Part shown: piece by piece, positions 37,379-46,705 of the stretch
How positions within the stretch are numbered: the stretch's first letter is position 1
Layout: each line of letters opens with the position of its first letter
From: Nanobdellota archaeon
Lineage (GTDB): Archaea; Nanobdellota; Nanobdellia; Parvarchaeales; Parvarchaeaceae
Direction: 5' to 3'
DNA length: 46,705 bases
Assembly (NCBI GenBank): GCA_021811735.1
Contig: JAJZNK010000035.1
Coordinates: forward strand, 1-46,705
Notes under the pieces: model-generated
Database searches by the model: none
Told to the model about the DNA's origin: nothing
The model's input: only the letters and a program-made list of their open reading frames with translations
Program-made: the position numbers and the translations under genes

Positions 37379-37747
37379 ATGGAGCCACAAAGTGACCTTA
37401 CAAGAAACGTTGTAGAGCTCAGGGAATCGATAAAAATCTTTGACCAGAGAATTTCACAGTTGAAAGACACTATCAAAATGGTGGACCAGAACAACCTTGA
37501 AAAATATAAAGAGATAAAATTAGCCATCCAAAGCATAAACAATGAAATCTCCAGCAGCAAAACCAAGATCTTCGAACTAGAGGACGCAATCAATAGACTG
37601 GAACGGCAATCGGAGAATTTCGCAAAGTCACAGGATATCAAAGTCATAGAGAAATATCTTAGCTTTGTTGACCCTTCAAGGTTTTTAAATAAGGAAGACG
37701 TTATTAAAATTGTAAACGATTACATGAACAGTAAGAAGTGGAGTTGA
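37379..37747 (+). CDS. Small coiled-coil protein
   Basis: The 122 residues have a strong coiled coil over about 8-82 (heptad-spaced I, L and V between charged residues, for example LRESIKIFDQRISQLKDTI) and a short C-terminal helical unit, FVDPSRFLNKEDVIKIVNDYM. No membrane segment. The next gene begins 2 bases after its stop, so the two coiled-coil proteins probably form a complex. Similar pairs occur in other DPANN archaea as far as I recall; the role is unknown. Confidence 0.65.
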   Translation: MEPQSDLTRNVVELRESIKIFDQRISQLKDTIKMVDQNNLEKYKEIKLAIQSINNEISSSKTKIFELEDAINRLERQSENFAKSQDIKVIEKYLSFVDPSRFLNKEDVIKIVNDYMNSKKWS

Positions 37748-37749
37748 AT

Positions 37750-38400
37750 ATGAATCTGATGAATGCATTTAAGAAAAAAGATGAGGACTTACCTGATGTA
37801 AGCGGCATGCTTGCAAATGGGATGAGCCAACAAGATATAATAGACAGTCTAAGGCAGCAAGGATACGACAGCACAACGATAAAGGATGCGCTTGTAAACG
37901 CTTTGAGAAATCAAGCGCCCCAGACAAGCACTGCACCACAGGCGGCGGAACCAGTAAGACAGGAGCAGCCAATCCAAAGGGCGCAACCGTTGCAGCAACC
38001 TGTTATGCAAGAAAGACCTGCTAATCAGTTTTCAAACGCCCAGAATTCCAGCGGACAGAATATAGATAACATACAGCAGATACTAGAGCAGATAATAGAC
38101 GAGAAATGGAAGTCATCTGCATCTGAGCTTAACTCCTTAAGGTCAGGGATGAACATAAACTCTACTTCTATTGAAAATATCAAGGATCAGATAGACAAAC
38201 TTAACCAGAGAATAGACAGTATACAGAACACTATGGTTGGAAAAACCGAAGAATACAATAAAACAATTTCTGATGTAAATGTAGAGCTGCAGGCCTTTGA
38301 AAAAGTGATAGATAGACTTGTTCCTGCCATAAGCGACAGCATAAAAGAGCTTAGGGATTTGATAGAGGGCCTGAAGCCTCAAAAAGGATTAAACGCTTAA
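37750..38400 (+). CDS. Coiled-coil protein with N-terminal helical motif
   Basis: From ATG 37750 the product has 216 residues; a GTG at 37738 would overlap the upstream gene. Residues about 15-50 form a UBA-like two- or three-helix unit (MLANGMSQQDIIDSL, QQGYDSTTIKDALVNAL). A Gln/Pro-rich linker (55-105) and a long C-terminal coiled coil (110-210) follow. The layout resembles a scaffold or adaptor. It is coupled to the coiled-coil gene upstream. Confidence 0.65.
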   Translation: MNLMNAFKKKDEDLPDVSGMLANGMSQQDIIDSLRQQGYDSTTIKDALVNALRNQAPQTSTAPQAAEPVRQEQPIQRAQPLQQPVMQERPANQFSNAQNSSGQNIDNIQQILEQIIDEKWKSSASELNSLRSGMNINSTSIENIKDQIDKLNQRIDSIQNTMVGKTEEYNKTISDVNVELQAFEKVIDRLVPAISDSIKELRDLIEGLKPQKGLNA

Positions 38401-38426
38401 ATACAACCTGTTTTCTCTTGAAATAT

Positions 38427-39236
38427 ATGGGAAAACTGCATAAATTGGATGGATTTAAGAATCTTGACGATTTGGTCGAGGAGGATTACAAGAACGGTGT
38501 AGCCAATTACAGCCTCGGAATTCTTGGTGAGATTACAGGGTTGTTGATTAAAAAATCCATTTTCGTTAATGAAAACCCTTTCATTGGTAGATTTTTAGTA
38601 AGGAAAGACGAATTGGAAGAAGAAGAGGAGGGAATTACGAAGTTCATATATTCTTTGTCGCCTAAATCATTAAAATATCTACATGGCATGACGACTGGTG
38701 AACTATATATTTTTGATCAGGATGAGTACACCTTGTCGACGATTTCGACATATTTTGAGCATGGAGATATAATCAATTCCTGGGAGCCTGTGCAGCTTCA
38801 CGAGGACGAGATACAATTGCTGGAAAACCTAAATAACCAGCCGGAAAAAATAAAGACACTAATGTCTAAAATGTCTGATACATTTTATAAATTCGCGGAG
38901 AACAATTTCTTTGCCTACGAGATAAAGAGCAAATCCAGTGTGTTTTTGGAGTACGATGACGGAGACTCGGGAGATATGTCTAGAGTCTACTTGTTGAAAA
39001 ATGACACTGCTAAAGACTTGATAGAGAAAGTGATGAACACTGACAGCAAAAACCTGACTGAGCTTTACAAAAATCTCAATGGAAGATTGTTCATAAAGGA
39101 CAGTAAGAATGATGTATATTCTCTGGAGATAAACGAAGGGGCTGCCGAGTTCACAAAGCACATGAAAACCGGGGACCGGGAATCGATAATCATGGGTAGG
39201 ATAAACCATGACGACAACAAAGATATGTATGTCTGA
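38427..39236 (+). CDS. Hypothetical protein with N-terminal LDDL motif (unknown cluster 1)
   Basis: The 269 residues start MGKLHKLDGFKNLDDL. The ATG at 38427 is about 26 bases after a TTAAATAC box (38397-38404) that overlaps the preceding stop codon. The protein is acidic and alpha/beta, without signal peptide or membrane helix. It has an N-terminal NLDDLVEED segment (11-19), an acidic patch (DELEEEEEG, about 65-73) and a C-terminal half with KSSVFLEYDDGD and LFIKDSKNDVYSL. It partly parallels the next protein in length and secondary-structure pattern, so the two could be distant paralogues. No family is recognised. Confidence 0.6.
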   Translation: MGKLHKLDGFKNLDDLVEEDYKNGVANYSLGILGEITGLLIKKSIFVNENPFIGRFLVRKDELEEEEEGITKFIYSLSPKSLKYLHGMTTGELYIFDQDEYTLSTISTYFEHGDIINSWEPVQLHEDEIQLLENLNNQPEKIKTLMSKMSDTFYKFAENNFFAYEIKSKSSVFLEYDDGDSGDMSRVYLLKNDTAKDLIEKVMNTDSKNLTELYKNLNGRLFIKDSKNDVYSLEINEGAAEFTKHMKTGDRESIIMGRINHDDNKDMYV

Positions 39237-40074
39237 AAGAAAAAGACTAGATGACTTTATCGACGAAGGAAACGAAGCGATGGTGGATTTGAGGACTTCG
39301 GAAATATTTCAATTGTCTGCAAAAATAAAGGACGGTTCAAGGTTTATCAAAGACAATGTCGGCTTGCACGGGTATTACTTGAGCAAATCCAACCATAGAA
39401 TAGTCGAACAGATTAAGGCGTTGAGCGATACTGAAAGAGACTATCTTTATTACGCTCTTAATAAACCATTAGTCATACTGGATGAAAATAACCTAGTTTA
39501 TACCTTCGACCAGAAGTTCAGCGGACTTGATGCTTTTTCAGTCTTTTACGAACTAAAGATTAATGACGGCCACCTATCTGAATTAAATAAAATTTATGAT
39601 GGCGGAGAAAAACCAGGCACGGATTATGATAAAAAATTTTCAGAAATGTACAGAATTTCGTCCGATATAAAAAACTATGGATTTAAAGTGATACTTACCG
39701 TGCAAAACAAGGATATAGTTTTTTACCTGACGGAACTTCAGTCGATGGGAAAGAAAGGTAAGAAGATACTAAAATACCTTTCTAATCTCAAATCTGATGA
39801 CCTGTCGGATATGAGTTATATAACGCAGCGTTTTTCGATAATAGACACTGAAAAAAATATAGGATATGCAATAATAGACACTAAGGATGGTAATAACAAA
39901 GAGATAACAAAATTCGTAGAAGAGGAGAAAGCCCAATACGAAGGCCTTTACAAGATATTGCAGATGGCTAAGCAGACCCCGAAAAACAAAACATTACTCA
40001 TACCGGGAAAAATAGAGGAAAATACATCCGAATATAAGCCGCCTAACACTGACCCATCTGATATGTACCGTTGA
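39229..40074 (+). CDS. Hypothetical protein with N-terminal LDDF motif (unknown cluster 1)
   Basis: The ATG at 39229 is chosen over 39208 because it overlaps the upstream stop by only 8 bases (ATGTCTGA). The product has 281 residues: MSERKRLDDFIDEGNEAMVDL at the start, then alternating strands and helices (SKSNHRIVEQIKALSDTERDYLYYAL), and a C-terminal half with VILTVQNKDIVFYLTEL and RFSIIDTEKNIGYAIID that mirrors the previous protein. The C-terminal tail is polar and Pro-rich. No membrane part, no recognised domain. It is the last gene of its transcript and converges on aspS. Confidence 0.6.
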   Translation: MSERKRLDDFIDEGNEAMVDLRTSEIFQLSAKIKDGSRFIKDNVGLHGYYLSKSNHRIVEQIKALSDTERDYLYYALNKPLVILDENNLVYTFDQKFSGLDAFSVFYELKINDGHLSELNKIYDGGEKPGTDYDKKFSEMYRISSDIKNYGFKVILTVQNKDIVFYLTELQSMGKKGKKILKYLSNLKSDDLSDMSYITQRFSIIDTEKNIGYAIIDTKDGNNKEITKFVEEEKAQYEGLYKILQMAKQTPKNKTLLIPGKIEENTSEYKPPNTDPSDMYR

Positions 40075-41544: not shown

Positions 41545-42432
41545 ATGGAAGAGAGTTTTGAGGGCGCGAGACTCCACACTGCTGAGCACATGTTCGCCAG
41601 GGCCCTACAGGAACAGGGATTGAAAATCCATGTGAGAAAAGCAGATACCTACAGAGAGGATAATATCGGTAAGGTTTACATAAAGGAGATAATCCCTTTC
41701 GACAGCATAAAAAAGGCCGAAGCCACTGTTAACGACAAGATAATTGATGACCTAATGGTAATGGAAGAGACCTTCAAAACGATTGACGAAGCGAAAAAAA
41801 AGATTCCGAAACTAAGGTTCAACGAAGAGAGACTTGAGGGAAGACAGGAGATAAGAGTAGTGAACATCGGAGAATATGATTTTTCGGCCTGTGGCCATCT
41901 TCATGCAAAAAGCACAAAAGAGATAATTTCTTTTGCTGTCAACAGAGTATCATATCTTGGCGGCGAAACTGAAATAGAGTTCCTGGCAGGCACTCGCGCG
42001 ATTGAATTCCTCCTTAAGATGAAAAACACTGTCCTAGAAACAGCGATGAAACATCATTTTATACCTGAAGAGTTGGAGCTGCACGCTGAAAAGCAGAGAG
42101 AATCAATAAACGAGATGGAGAGTGAGGAGAAAAGAATGCTGTCCGCAATGATATCTAACTCAAATAATATAATAGAACTTAAGAATGCAAAGATATCAAA
42201 ATTTTATGGTGAACTCAGCTCCATAACGCGCAAACATCCTGAAAAATGCATAGCTTTAACAAATGGCTCGCAGATTATAGTTTTGAAGGGAAAAGACTCT
42301 GCTGTAGATATAGTAGCAATCGGTGAAAAACTCCGGAGGAAGGGTTTCTCTGGCAGTATAAATGAAAGCACGATAAACGGGAAGGCTGATGAAACCATAA
42401 TAGAAGAGCTCAAAAAGGAATGGAAAGTCTAG
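41545..42432 (+). CDS. alaX: AlaX-like alanyl-tRNA editing protein
   Basis: A stand-alone relative of the AlaRS editing domain, expected to hydrolyse Ser- or Gly-tRNA(Ala). The metal-binding motifs are H11-xxx-H15 (HTAEH) and C116-xxx-H120 (CGHLH). At 295 residues it is longer than AlaX-S. It lacks the N-terminal beta-barrel of AlaX-L but has a helical linker (165-215) and a C-terminal domain (220-295) with IVLKGKDSAVDIVAIGEKLRR, like the AlaRS DHHA1 domain. It resembles the C-terminal half of AlaRS cut loose. It is divergent from aspS, and its end overlaps the UDG start by 13 bases. Confidence 0.82.
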   Translation: MEESFEGARLHTAEHMFARALQEQGLKIHVRKADTYREDNIGKVYIKEIIPFDSIKKAEATVNDKIIDDLMVMEETFKTIDEAKKKIPKLRFNEERLEGRQEIRVVNIGEYDFSACGHLHAKSTKEIISFAVNRVSYLGGETEIEFLAGTRAIEFLLKMKNTVLETAMKHHFIPEELELHAEKQRESINEMESEEKRMLSAMISNSNNIIELKNAKISKFYGELSSITRKHPEKCIALTNGSQIIVLKGKDSAVDIVAIGEKLRRKGFSGSINESTINGKADETIIEELKKEWKV

Positions 42433-42992
42433 ATTCGATAGCTGGTGAGATAAAGAAATGCACACGGTGTGACCTGTGTCTTAAACGGCAAAACGCAGTA
42501 CCTGGAGAGGGCGATCCTCATAGCAAGATAGTGATAATAGGCGAAGGCCCGGGAAAAAATGAGGACTTGCAGGGCAGGCCATTTATCGGCATGTCGGGAA
42601 AATTCCTTACAAAATACCTGGAGAAAGCAGGTATAACCAGAGAGAAGGTGTTTATAACTAATGCCGTAAAATGCCGGCCTCCTAACAACAGAAAACCGAA
42701 GGCGGAAGAATTAGATAAATGCAGGCCGTTTCTTTCAAGACAGCTCGCTGCTATAAAGCCGACGGTCATCCTTGCGCTTGGAACTTCTGCCGCTTCCGCC
42801 CTGGGGATCAAGTTCAAACACCTTTCAGAGATAAAGAGCCGGACGATTGAAATAGAGCTAGAAGGCAGGAAATTCAACTGCTTCGTTACTTTCCATCCCT
42901 CCTTTCCGATGCGTTTCCCAAGGGCTAGGGACGGGTTTTTAAAGGATATCCGTAGCTGCATAAATGTTTACAATAATTTATCTACAACGTAA
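42420..42992 (+). CDS. Uracil-DNA glycosylase, family 4
   Basis: Removes uracil from DNA in base-excision repair. The 190 residues show the four [4Fe-4S] cysteines (C14, C17, C85, C101), motif 1 GEGPGKNEDLQGRPFIG (41-57; the family norm is GEAPG) and motif 2 HPS at 159-161. The C-terminus is complete. The ATG lies inside the alaX 3' end, so the two are translationally coupled though functionally unrelated. Confidence 0.93.
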   Translation: MESLDSIAGEIKKCTRCDLCLKRQNAVPGEGDPHSKIVIIGEGPGKNEDLQGRPFIGMSGKFLTKYLEKAGITREKVFITNAVKCRPPNNRKPKAEELDKCRPFLSRQLAAIKPTVILALGTSAASALGIKFKHLSEIKSRTIEIELEGRKFNCFVTFHPSFPMRFPRARDGFLKDIRSCINVYNNLSTT

Positions 42993-43032
42993 TAGTAAAG
43001 TATTTATATAGCTTCGACTCATAATACTGAAT

Positions 43033-44073
43033 ATGGATACTGCAAAAGACAGGGATGATAATAGGACCGATATAGGCATGCCCGATTCAGGCGTCGTGCC
43101 GGAAAGTATGGACACCGCAGAAGATAACTCTACCAGTGAACCTGATAGAGAGATATCGCCAAATGTTGTCATGCCTGGGAGCCAGACAAAAGCACAGTCG
43201 CTTGATGAATTACTGAAAGAGGGTGGAGATCACTACAACTCGCTCAAGGCACTTCTCACAGACATAAAGAGATTTGAATCCAACCAGTATGAAAACTTCC
43301 CAGAATTAGCCAGGAGCTTTGCGGCGAATTATTCGAATTACATAAAATCATCACCGCTCGCTGAAGAGCCTAAGACCCTTGAGTTTGCAAAGGACTTCAA
43401 TATCCTTTTGAACGGACAGGGAAGTGACAGCAAGAAGAAGGAATACATGCAAAAGATTATAGATTACCTTAACGGACCAATTTCAGCAGAATACAATAAG
43501 ATTTCTACGTTCCTTAAACCGGGCGACTATCATAATATTGTCAGGGGATCACTCAATGATCCTTTGATAATGCTCAACCCCTTCATGCAGAGTATGAAGA
43601 ATGAACTCGGTAAGAACGAAGACTACGGCAGAGGTATAAAATTGAATGACCTCGCGAAGACAATGGCCGAAGATTATCGAAAGAATGACTTTTCAAAGCT
43701 CGGTGACTACTTCGAGAAGATACCTTATAATAAGAAGGCATTGATGAAGGCCGGGCTAAATGAAACCCAAGTGGAAACCATGATTAAAACACAGGATGAT
43801 CTCTTCAAGAAGATGACCTCTGGATTAAAGGAAGAATACCAAAAACCACTCATGCGATCACTCCTGGGGATACTTATCTCTGAAGGTTCAAAACAAGTAT
43901 CGAAACTCGATCCTAGTAGTTCCATGTCTGCAGTAAAGAACTCAAATCTTGACCCTTTAACTGGGGCTTATCTCGCGCTAAACGCAAAAGATTACGGCGA
44001 AAAGGCGGATAGCATTTCAGGAACTTACAGCCCGCGAATGGGATTAGGTATGGAATATGGTATGGAGGAATAA
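43033..44073 (+). CDS. Hypothetical protein, first gene of unknown cluster 2
   Basis: The 346 residues follow a TATTTATATAG box about 29 bases before the ATG. The N-terminal 45 residues are acidic, Ser/Asp-rich and probably disordered. From about 52 the protein is helical, beginning SLDELLKEGGDHYNSLKALL, a motif shared in form with three other unknown proteins in this window. A long helical body (100-320) and a Gly/Met-rich tail (GLGMEYGMEE) follow. No signal peptide or membrane helix. It leads a three-gene operon. No family is recognised. Confidence 0.62.
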   Translation: MDTAKDRDDNRTDIGMPDSGVVPESMDTAEDNSTSEPDREISPNVVMPGSQTKAQSLDELLKEGGDHYNSLKALLTDIKRFESNQYENFPELARSFAANYSNYIKSSPLAEEPKTLEFAKDFNILLNGQGSDSKKKEYMQKIIDYLNGPISAEYNKISTFLKPGDYHNIVRGSLNDPLIMLNPFMQSMKNELGKNEDYGRGIKLNDLAKTMAEDYRKNDFSKLGDYFEKIPYNKKALMKAGLNETQVETMIKTQDDLFKKMTSGLKEEYQKPLMRSLLGILISEGSKQVSKLDPSSSMSAVKNSNLDPLTGAYLALNAKDYGEKADSISGTYSPRMGLGMEYGMEE

Positions 44074-44076
44074 AAT

Positions 44077-44913
44077 ATGAAAGTAGTAGGATTCATTTCA
44101 AGCAGCGAATATACCACTATAAGCAGTGGTGATAATGGAAGAACAAGCAGCACGTTTGATTATACTCAATGGAATGATAGCAGGCAGTACAACGTGTCAA
44201 AATTTACCAATTCTCTGCAAAAAGAAATGGGGACTGGGAACATAGCAGACCTAATGGCTTACAATGAGATTTCAAAATTACAGGTAGCAGCTGAGATGCC
44301 TGGAGCAAAGCTTGTGGGAATGCAAGATGCTGTATCAGAAAAGAGAAGGCTTGAACAGCTCAAGATGGAGGCACTTCAGCCGAGCAAACATCTTGGCCCT
44401 TTCAGCAACTTAAGATATCAAATAGTGCCCACAGGCGCAGTTAAAACATATGACAGCAACGGAAACGAAAAGCTTCAGAATATGTACAGGCTAAAGGTAG
44501 AGTACGGATACAGACTTATAGATAAAAAACCGGCTTACCATCAGAAAATGCACGATCTTGCACTAGACTTAACTGAGAATGCACAAAACAAAAGGATGCA
44601 CTTGGGAAACTTGGAGAGAAAATGGTTCAATGACAGGATTTATGCAGACGACTTGCAGATAGAATTACTTTCCCCGTACCGGTGGGGAGCGAGCTATGAT
44701 TATAGAAAGATAGACTTTGGGAATAATAGTGTAAAATACAAAAAGGGTTTTGGAACTAAGCTCTTGACCGGACTTCTAGGAATCCCTGGAGGACTTGTTT
44801 TAGGTCCAAGAATAAGCATAGTTTCCACCAAGCCTATGACTGAACGAAGAGTCGAAGACCTGATGGCGATACTTAAAGGCATCGAATCTGTGCAAACGAC
44901 GGAGAACAACTAA
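44077..44913 (+). CDS. Hypothetical protein, second gene of unknown cluster 2
   Basis: The 278 residues start MKVVGFISSSEYTTISS. A Ser/Thr-rich N-terminal part (1-45) leads into a mixed helical middle (HLGPFSNLRYQIVP, YRLKVEYGYRLID) and a moderately hydrophobic Gly-rich segment near 230-255 (LLTGLLGIPGGLVLGPRI), too glycine-rich for a clear membrane helix. It is 3 bases behind the first gene and 2 bases before the third, so the three are surely co-expressed. No known family or catalytic motif is seen. Confidence 0.62.
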   Translation: MKVVGFISSSEYTTISSGDNGRTSSTFDYTQWNDSRQYNVSKFTNSLQKEMGTGNIADLMAYNEISKLQVAAEMPGAKLVGMQDAVSEKRRLEQLKMEALQPSKHLGPFSNLRYQIVPTGAVKTYDSNGNEKLQNMYRLKVEYGYRLIDKKPAYHQKMHDLALDLTENAQNKRMHLGNLERKWFNDRIYADDLQIELLSPYRWGASYDYRKIDFGNNSVKYKKGFGTKLLTGLLGIPGGLVLGPRISIVSTKPMTERRVEDLMAILKGIESVQTTENN

Positions 44914-44915
44914 AT

Positions 44916-45731
44916 ATGGTAAAAGCTGATAACTTGGAAAACCTGATAAATAAAGGGAGCAGCACTGTTTACTTTAGTCTTAATACTGCTGTTCCTAGCC
45001 ACGAAATATGGACTAAGGGAAACGGTCTCGAAAAAGCGGTGGGCATAAAAAACCCAGGTGATGCTGTATCGCTTATAGGTATAAAAAAATACAAGAATGA
45101 TAAAAAGGAAGCGTATTTCCTACACGGGGTCTATGAATTGATGCCGTTCTCTGTTGATGCAGTTGATGACGACGGCTACAAACAGGTCCATAACAAAATG
45201 ATACCTGGAGTTGCTTATATCAATCCATCGTCTGTCGGAATAAAAAGCGATGAACTGGGATCGATAGGTAGTGAAACTGGCCCAGTAAAAAGCGGAAAGA
45301 AGGAATTTCTAGGCATAATAAATTTAGATTACCTTACAAGACTGGACAGTGGAAAAATAAACGAGCGCTTTACAAATGGAGCGTATCTTAATATGAAACC
45401 TACAAAAGATGGCTCGAAGTTCGTTGAACCTTCTGAAAAACACAGAATAATAAATAATGTTGGGCAAGGTGCAGGCCTTATTTCCTCGACGATAACTGAT
45501 AAAATAGCCGATAGATATGGCTTTCCAAGACCATCACCTGGAGATGTGATAGTTGGCATTGGCTATTTTGGGGATTCTATTAAGAGCTACAAAGACCAAG
45601 AACCTTATGCATTTCCAATGGTAGTTTCTGCCATTGGCAACAGGATGCAGGTTCCAAGTGATGTGATAGACAGCATGTACTTTGAAGTTATACTCGGCGT
45701 AGATAAGAGAACGGGAGTAAGTCTCGTATAG
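44916..45731 (+). CDS. Hypothetical protein, third gene of unknown cluster 2
   Basis: The 271 residues start MVKADNLENLINKGSSTVYFSL; the NLENLINKG segment (6-14) matches the pattern seen in the other unknown proteins. The rest is strand-rich with many Gly and Pro (AYFLHGVYELMPF, GVAYINPSSVG, PSPGDVIVGIGYFGDS) and could be a beta-sandwich or barrel-like fold. No signal peptide, membrane helix or catalytic motif. It ends the operon, convergent to the surface protein at 45799. Confidence 0.62.
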   Translation: MVKADNLENLINKGSSTVYFSLNTAVPSHEIWTKGNGLEKAVGIKNPGDAVSLIGIKKYKNDKKEAYFLHGVYELMPFSVDAVDDDGYKQVHNKMIPGVAYINPSSVGIKSDELGSIGSETGPVKSGKKEFLGIINLDYLTRLDSGKINERFTNGAYLNMKPTKDGSKFVEPSEKHRIINNVGQGAGLISSTITDKIADRYGFPRPSPGDVIVGIGYFGDSIKSYKDQEPYAFPMVVSAIGNRMQVPSDVIDSMYFEVILGVDKRTGVSLV

Positions 45732-45798: not shown

Positions 45799-46705
45799 TT
45801 AAGGTGAGACCCACTGTATATTTGTTAATACACCATTGTTGTTATTTCCGCTGTAGTCATTTGCATTTCCATCTAAAGGCCACCAACCTACAAGTCCCAG
45901 ACTAGATGATGGGGCCCAACCAACACCGTGAGAAAATAGTTGATTTACTTCACTTGGAGAAAGAGTCTTACTGTATAATTGCATGTTACTAAGTGTTCCG
46001 TTAAAAGAGCTTATCCCATAAGTATTGCCCCCGGGTGGAGTGGTTCCAAAAGTTATGTAATTTAATGAGTAAATATCATTAGGAATTGCTGAACCAATAC
46101 AGGGACTTGAAGCATTAACATAATATGTTACTGCACCATTGCTAACCGAGATTGTAACCATCGTCCATATCTTACCATTTACGCCTAATCCATGATCACC
46201 TGAACCAGTCACCCAGATTTCTTCATTTCCACTTCCACAAGAAGCACCTGCTCCTCCACCACTATTCAGCCAAGACGTAATAAAATTAGTTCCGTTAGAA
46301 CCAAACATCGTATAACCATTTCCACTTGTCATTTTGGAAGTGTTAACACCATAAACCCAATAGACGACTGTAAAGGTATGTGAAGTGAATAATGTAGAAG
46401 TAATTATTTCACTGTTTGACCCGTCAAAACTAGCTACTTTATTTACATTACGTTTAACAGAAACGCTTTGTATCCTCCCGTTTGAAAAATACGGCCCAGG
46501 AAGGATCTGACTTGGTTCTAAATATTTTATATTTACAGACCCAGAATATGAAGTTGAACCATTGCAGGCTCCGTTCACGTAAAAGACTCCCGATTGTCCT
46601 GCTCTAAGCAGTGAATTTACATTCTGTACTGTATTGACGCCGTTGTTTCCGCTTACGTTTATGTCCGTTACGTTTACAGGGTATCCTACGGTATTTGAGA
46701 CATAG
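45799..46705 (-). CDS. LamG/concanavalin-like surface protein (5' end beyond window)
   Basis: The frame is open to the window edge, so about 302 C-terminal residues are visible and the start is missing. The first visible part is Asn/Val-rich (NVTDINVSGNNGVN) like repeats of archaeal surface proteins. A LamG-type jelly-roll follows (VASFDGSNSEIITS, HTFTVVYWVYG, IWTMVTISVSNGAVTYYVN, GTLSNMQLYSKTLSPSEVNQLF). After it comes GLVGWWPLDGNANDYSGNNNNG and a stop 10 residues later. That last motif normally begins a LamG domain, so the protein ends with the start of a second, truncated repeat. Many N-x-S/T sites fit an extracellular, glycosylated protein. Confidence 0.7.
   Translation of the reverse strand, partial: YVSNTVGYPVNVTDINVSGNNGVNTVQNVNSLLRAGQSGVFYVNGACNGSTSYSGSVNIKYLEPSQILPGPYFSNGRIQSVSVKRNVNKVASFDGSNSEIITSTLFTSHTFTVVYWVYGVNTSKMTSGNGYTMFGSNGTNFITSWLNSGGGAGASCGSGNEEIWVTGSGDHGLGVNGKIWTMVTISVSNGAVTYYVNASSPCIGSAIPNDIYSLNYITFGTTPPGGNTYGISSFNGTLSNMQLYSKTLSPSEVNQLFSHGVGWAPSSSLGLVGWWPLDGNANDYSGNNNNGVLTNIQWVSP

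Follow-up and report, generated by a model that had tools for sequence, protein, structure and literature searches.

Three adjacent genes of an archaeal genome, here called A, B and C, belong to no recognised protein family and are separated from one another by only a few bases, which raises the question of what their products do, and of whether they do it together. The genes lie on the + strand of a window of 46,705 nucleotides, the whole stretch of DNA that was analysed, which belongs to an assembly of 52 contigs and 877,581 bases from a member of Ca. Parvarchaeota (DPANN). Gene A (43033-44073) encodes 346 residues, gene B (44077-44913) encodes 278 and gene C (44916-45731) encodes 271, with 3 bases between A and B and 2 bases between B and C, in agreement with the ORF lengths and the 2-3 base spacing given in the initial annotation of the locus. 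That annotation also described the proteins as wholly unrecognised, placed the genes in one operon behind a leaderless-type promoter, and argued from their tight coupling that the products form a complex, possibly of a scaffold with a shell- or tail-like component.

Protein families and operon anatomy

The description of the proteins as wholly unrecognised holds for curated families, with A, B and C all below every cut-off in Pfam and NCBIfam, and a profile search for housekeeping families, a match to which would have contradicted the description, found none. Searches of Pfam, PHROGs, NCBIfam and PADLOC up to an E-value of 1 returned nothing useful for the three proteins, and scanning all 20 B and 12 C homologues still gave no family; for the 12 C homologues the only Pfam entry was PF18491, at 0.095, and none was over the cut-off. 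The best PHROG match for any of the three (0.0026) has no known function and is not convincing. In PADLOC-DB, the lone match was Csn2 to A (15.2 bits, E 0.0034, 70 residues), which is equally weak in NCBIfam, where the cut-off is 35; because PADLOC-DB gave only this sub-threshold match, assignment of A, B or C to known anti-phage defence proteins was rejected. PDB sequences compared with the profiles gave best E-values of 0.019 for A, 0.58 for B and 0.19 for C, judged to be chance matches.

Purifying selection on A, B and C, and with it their status as real genes, is evident from close orthologue pairs, in which pN is well below pS (0.07 versus 0.49 for B, 0.11 versus 0.47 for A, and 0.13 versus 0.55 for C), thus excluding chance ORFs. 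No obvious membrane span is present in any of the proteins, since the maximal 19-residue hydropathy reaches only 0.49 in A, 1.36 in B and 0.91 in C. Judged by composition and motifs, the N-terminus of A looks disordered and the rest of the protein is probably helical. According to passages of Meheust et al. (2022, PMC9258230), major archaeal groups have near-ubiquitous lineage-specific protein families that lack a functional prediction, and A, B and C are likewise near-ubiquitous in one lineage and without functional prediction, but their families are not named in those passages. Nor are the three proteins named in passages, supplements aside, of PMC5864196, PMC9258230, PMC10134863 and PMC7779479; an entry in a supplementary proteomic or family table may exist in print.

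A private promoter precedes gene A, in the form of a 19-bp BRE/TATA-like box, AATAGTAAAGTATTTATAT, at 42991-43009 (+), just outside the three-gene interval that had been annotated. The TATA-like part of the box ends 23 nt before the ATG codon of A, and no Shine-Dalgarno sequence precedes this codon, a combination that fits a leaderless start. For B, a Shine-Dalgarno sequence, GGAGG, lies within the 3' end of A (44064-44068, +), and for C a Shine-Dalgarno-like GGAG can be read at 44901-44904 (+); most orthologous loci in the alignment have GGAGG-like sites upstream of these two genes. One promoter, one strand, minimal spacing and conserved gene order, as read here from the sequence alone, mark A, B and C as a single operon, and the initial annotation was right to predict one operon with one leaderless-type promoter.

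The box reaches into the stop codon of the preceding gene, which encodes a uracil-DNA glycosylase (UDG; 42420-42992, +; PF03167, 5.7e-38) and is outside the promoter-defined unit. Further upstream is a gene for an alanyl-tRNA editing-type protein with a weak tRNA_SAD match (41545-42432), and downstream, on the - strand, a gene for a LamG-domain protein (45799-46578) runs past the end of the window. LamG/concanavalin-like relatives of the latter include a 359-residue protein (L040:9800-10879), which may be compared with L025:4901-6112; the LamG-type relative in L025 has a pilin-like segment, SALEYMMTYGWAILII, near its start, which makes a surface adhesin possible. Elsewhere in the window is another row of three unknowns specific to the lineage (37738-40074, +; 220, 272 and 288 residues), the first of which is a likely coiled coil. 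This run sits just past a gene for an Asp/Asn-type tRNA synthetase, and related genes occupy the equivalent place in L022 and L038.

Lineage distribution and a promoter shared in trans

The family to which the genome belongs comprises 32 genomes, and the order gives the identical number. B is present in 25 of these genomes, A orthologues in 22 and C in 17-18, one of the C matches (in G014) being weak, at E 0.004. In G014, a protein with a weak match to a C motif (L083, E 0.00029) looks membrane-bound and was not counted among the C homologues. Both A and B are present in 21 of the 32 genomes, with A only in one (G028, a fragment), B only in four (G014, G016, G001 and G003), and neither in six (G013, G020, G022, G026, G027 and G031); in G027, C is immediately preceded, at the edge of a contig, by a five-residue B-like remnant. 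Among the eight genomes that are at least 90% complete, A and B are each present in all eight and C in five, and A and B are near-core genes of the order. The ultra-small archaea of this order are thought to be host-dependent. Retention of fast-evolving orphans under a private promoter in genomes whose assemblies are only 0.4-0.9 Mb implies that the lineage needs A and B.

Across 279 genomes of the phylum, profiles gave only weak partial matches outside the family: one for B (G216), two for C (G151 and G280) and eleven for A, the best at 2.8e-5. A scan with the B alignment, using one genome per species and possibly leaving out the genome studied here, identified 10 loci, all in Candidatus Parvarchaeota or Nanoarchaeota archaeon MAGs. 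The three families are confined to their own order, the Parvarchaeales, and are lineage-specific families rather than recent orphans, because they are found across the family and their close orthologues have pN far below pS. Of the distribution across related genomes and viruses that the initial annotation proposed to check, the first is borne out within the order, whereas phage collections gave no match to A, B or C and viral contigs gave none when searched with B, C and A.

The order A-B-C is found in ten genomes (G000, G004, G005, G007, G008, G011, G012, G018, G023 and G025), and in the main clade and G025 it is preceded by the UDG gene, which adjoins A in L021, L022, L025, L037-L039, L072 and L075. 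In other cases the genes are separated: in G024 and G015, UDG-A is either about 21 kb from B-C or on another contig, and in G002 about 3.5 kb lies between B-C and A. C is directly 3' of B at every locus where both were read, and the adjacency of B and C extends to another genus (G001-G003). Nine B rows (G006, G009, G010, G014, G016, G017, G019, G021 and G029) form a clade, here termed the B-only clade, in which no genome has an accepted C, and A, where found, sits elsewhere. In an unrooted maximum-likelihood tree of 24 B proteins, B-only and C-bearing rows are split with strong support (99/97), and B identity across groups is 22-41%.

Two of the loci have peculiarities of their own. Gene A of G012 (L022:7923-8759, on a contig shared with L071) has one in-frame TAG, at codon 114, which, at a coverage of 2.7, more probably reflects a sequencing error or a pseudogene than recoding. 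G030 has two different A-B-C copies, on contigs C2 and C29 (L064 and L063), with B proteins 62% and 65% identical to that of the window, and perhaps represents mixed strains or species.

In two relatives, the promoter box accompanies both parts of the separated operon, and this sharing of a promoter in trans is the main addition to the earlier finding. In the window, the box is unique at up to three mismatches, with 0.09 occurrences expected from shuffled sequences. It precedes A in all eight of the close A-B-C loci compared (seven exact copies, and one with one mismatch), with 21-23 nt between its end and the start codon of A in each, and at up to one mismatch it is found before A at 14 places in 13 genomes. 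In G024 and G015, where A is unlinked from B-C, the exact 19-mer is found before A and, separately, before B; further copies before B are present in G002 (one mismatch), G003 (two) and G006 (three). In 643,926 bases of partly overlapping loci, every match with up to three mismatches is upstream of A or B, the lone exception being L021:1246. In background stretches of two genomes, the box had no match with three mismatches or fewer in G024 (198,317 bases), and in G000 (258,719 bases) it had none with one mismatch or fewer, three with two and one with three.

The longest word common to the upstream regions of A and B is 19 bases in G024 and 22 in G015, and of the 16,471 background pairs of upstream regions in G024, one shares a 19-base word; against 182 other upstream regions, the best match was 12 bases for the A region and 11 for the B region. 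Exact retention of the box at both split loci argues for common control of A and B-C, and the presence of one box before both unlinked A and B-C supports a functional coupling that does not depend on their being neighbours. The rows of G024 and G015 are sisters in the B tree and do not count as independent cases; their shared promoter is perhaps one evolutionary event, and the sharing may in part represent inheritance of a box copied when one operon split. The link in trans is seen only in C-bearing lineages; the A and B promoters of the B-only clade are mostly unlike the box and unlike each other.

Other genes were considered as targets of the box. The one-mismatch copy at L021:1246 (+) precedes an orphan of 191 residues with two hydrophobic stretches, and the two-mismatch matches in G000 precede three small proteins. 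Among the loci examined, no relatives of these genes share the box, and a wider regulon was dropped for this reason. In part of the B-only clade, an alternative element is found upstream of B in G010 (L036:8053), G019 (L035:9995) and G016 (L034:2561), consisting of AAAGGTATTTATA followed by TTATTCTCTATTAAAGAGTAG or a close variant, with a palindrome, and is perhaps a different control site. The 19-bp box offers a handle on regulation in uncultured DPANN archaea, and can be scanned for in search of more regulon members.

Predicted structures of B and C

The structure prediction and Foldseek search proposed with the initial annotation gave models of poor quality for B (pLDDT 48.5) and C (pLDDT 45.6), perhaps as a result of the few sequences in their alignments (11 and 9, respectively), and a Foldseek search of the PDB with the C model returned nothing under E 1. 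In the C model, the C-terminal ~85 residues are predicted, with low confidence (pLDDT about 54-80), to form a double-psi beta-barrel, a fold in which two interlocked psi motifs make a six-stranded barrel. A second aligner placed its matches over residues ~177-270, the best with a Z of 4.3 and an rmsd of 3.3 over 65 residues; with this aligner a Z below 8 may reflect only a common arrangement, and every C match has a Z below 5. In its list, 41 of the 45 rows are what we take to be barrel-bearing proteins, presumably including two-barrel RNA polymerases (RDR2, QDE-1 and cellular RNAP), the N-domains of Pex6 and p97/CDC48, aspartate decarboxylase, molybdopterin oxidoreductases and an expansin.

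A hallmark of the double-psi beta-barrel is the GD-box motif in register, and C carries two GD-box-like motifs, PGDAV and PGDVI, which were spotted before the structural comparison. The N-half and C-half of C align with each other at their GD boxes, if weakly (P 0.075), and both halves align in the expected register with the GD box of CDC48_N, again weakly (P 0.021 and 0.026) and over only 13-15 columns of the profile alignments, as compared with P 0.066 and 0.036 for the best of 22 control families. A C-terminal barrel in C seems somewhat probable, with no family membership being claimed. Residues 183-263 of C superpose on the N-domain barrels (PF02359) of Pex6 (N1) and p97 (Z 2.0-3.6, 60-70 residues), but C has neither an AAA ATPase domain nor a profile match, and with every Z below 5 this is a possible likeness of fold and not membership. 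Membership of CDC48_N was rejected, with no profile match over the cut-off in the 12 C homologues, as was statistical homology, since CDC48_N ranks first of 23 non-self profiles but at P 0.073; the genome does contain a CDC48_N match, located away from C on contig C3. The suggestion that the operon encodes a scaffold and a shell- or tail-like component is not supported by these comparisons, with the ordered part of C resembling, in the model, a double-psi beta-barrel.

In the case of B, a mixed alpha/beta core is predicted at about residues 107-276. A mitoribosomal protein gives the best VIA match of this poor model (Z 6.1, 90 residues), and BamC, Bcs1 and several phage tail terminators, a group marked by its fold and hexameric ring, follow at Z 3-5; no fold is assigned to B from these matches. 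The order of helices and strands over residues 92-257 is like that of phage tail terminators and head-tail connectors (gpU, T5 p142 and the P74-26 neck; VIA Z 3.0-3.5), but identity is 6-8%, the scores are below those of unrelated folds, and B has no phage context.

Within its genus, B usually terminates in E-x-N-(A/N/T), at a near-constant distance from the last conserved block. A search of the 32 genomes for DNA encoding EEN(A/N/T/D)-stop gave 28 matches, as compared with 49 for a mirror-pattern control; nine of the 28 end B genes, one ends a B remnant at a contig edge, and the remainder either close short frames (5 to 83 codons) or do not coincide with a stop. The tail is a feature of B and not a genome-wide tag, and a genome-wide sorting signal was rejected because the non-B matches at a stop end only such short frames. 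B evolves fast, and the conservation of its free C-terminus may therefore mark a point of contact.

A possible assembly and its alternatives

The reading that best accommodates the operon anatomy, conservation, lineage restriction and shared promoter, and which is favoured here tentatively, is that of a lineage-specific soluble assembly with A and B as its core and C as a barrel-bearing accessory, all under one promoter. A, B and C would be soluble cytoplasmic proteins specific to the Parvarchaeales that act jointly as a small assembly, with the conserved A and B at its centre, and C, found beside B in the sampled genomes, would contribute a barrel domain of the binding kind. Double-psi-barrel domains elsewhere bind clients, adaptors or nucleic acid, and C may, if the low-confidence model is correct, be a binding module. 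The private promoter would set the levels of the three proteins together, with A translated from a leaderless start and B and C from Shine-Dalgarno sites on the same message, and in relatives of the C-bearing lineage with split operons each part would carry a promoter copy of its own. Docking between subunits would most likely involve the E-x-N-(A/N/T) tail of B. A physical complex of A, B and C is plausible; the argument of the initial annotation, from tight coupling to a complex, is strengthened as regards joint function by the promoter shared in trans, but the adjacency on which it relied is not fixed, as evidenced by G024, G015 and G002. The assembly would more probably have a structural or client-binding role than act as an enzyme, since no set of invariant residues that look catalytic was seen. 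Pairing of A and B by acidic and basic charge was excluded, since their isoelectric points vary among homologues.

A simpler account, which we consider doubtful but deserving of weight, is that A, B and C are separate proteins of one programme, such as a response to acid or host contact, that are co-regulated and form no complex. A shared promoter explains coupling in the absence of contact, and A is unlinked from B-C in several genomes, but such an account does not predict the direct adjacency of B and C that is kept in another genus, or the conserved free C-terminus of B with its suggestion of contact. The neighbouring UDG gene invites the alternative of a nucleic-acid or DNA-repair complex in which UDG participates and the barrel of C binds nucleic acid. 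UDG is directly 5' of A in the operon loci, and holds this position at loci with A and B-C unlinked (L072 and L075) too, and many of the barrels matched by the C model belong to polymerases; the private promoter, however, comes after UDG and overlaps its stop codon, which places UDG outside the unit, no UDG is beside A among the B-only-clade loci listed, and no catalytic polymerase motif was noticed in C. Such a complex is judged unlikely.

Quite unlikely, too, is the replacement of a known archaeal machine by fast-evolving proteins in which the usual subunits can no longer be recognised. The near-universal presence of A and B in the order and their fast divergence are what this account would predict, whereas the lack of a profile match of any kind argues against it. 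That the genes encode virus- or tail-derived particle proteins, domesticated in the lineage, is very improbable. Its appeal comes from the poor B model, among whose matches structures of phage necks, connectors and tail terminators keep recurring at weak scores (Foldseek E no better than 0.1 in the PDB and 0.002 in BFVD), but in the Foldseek rows TM-scores are about 0.1-0.3, the rmsd is mostly above 8 A, and non-phage folds are ranked higher by Z. These non-significant matches concern B and not C, to which the shell- or tail-like part had been assigned. Searches of phages and viral contigs found no relative, no PHROG is convincing, and the neighbouring genes are mostly housekeeping genes. The tail sheath family PF04984 is found in none of the 32 family genomes, as compared with 3 of 14 controls, a comparison that tests contractile systems only; non-contractile tails have no sheath.

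A more specific form of the favoured assembly would have A, B and C as subunits of a self-assembling intracellular structure particular to the Parvarchaeales, such as a tubule, ring or compartment, to which we attach only a very small probability. Polymer contacts would then be made by the B tail, with C serving as a barrel cap or as a receptor for clients. Internal tubules have been reported in ARMAN cells, and a self-assembling A-B-C structure, if true, could account for them. If the complex is real, A-B-C would represent a small recombinant target for structure determination.
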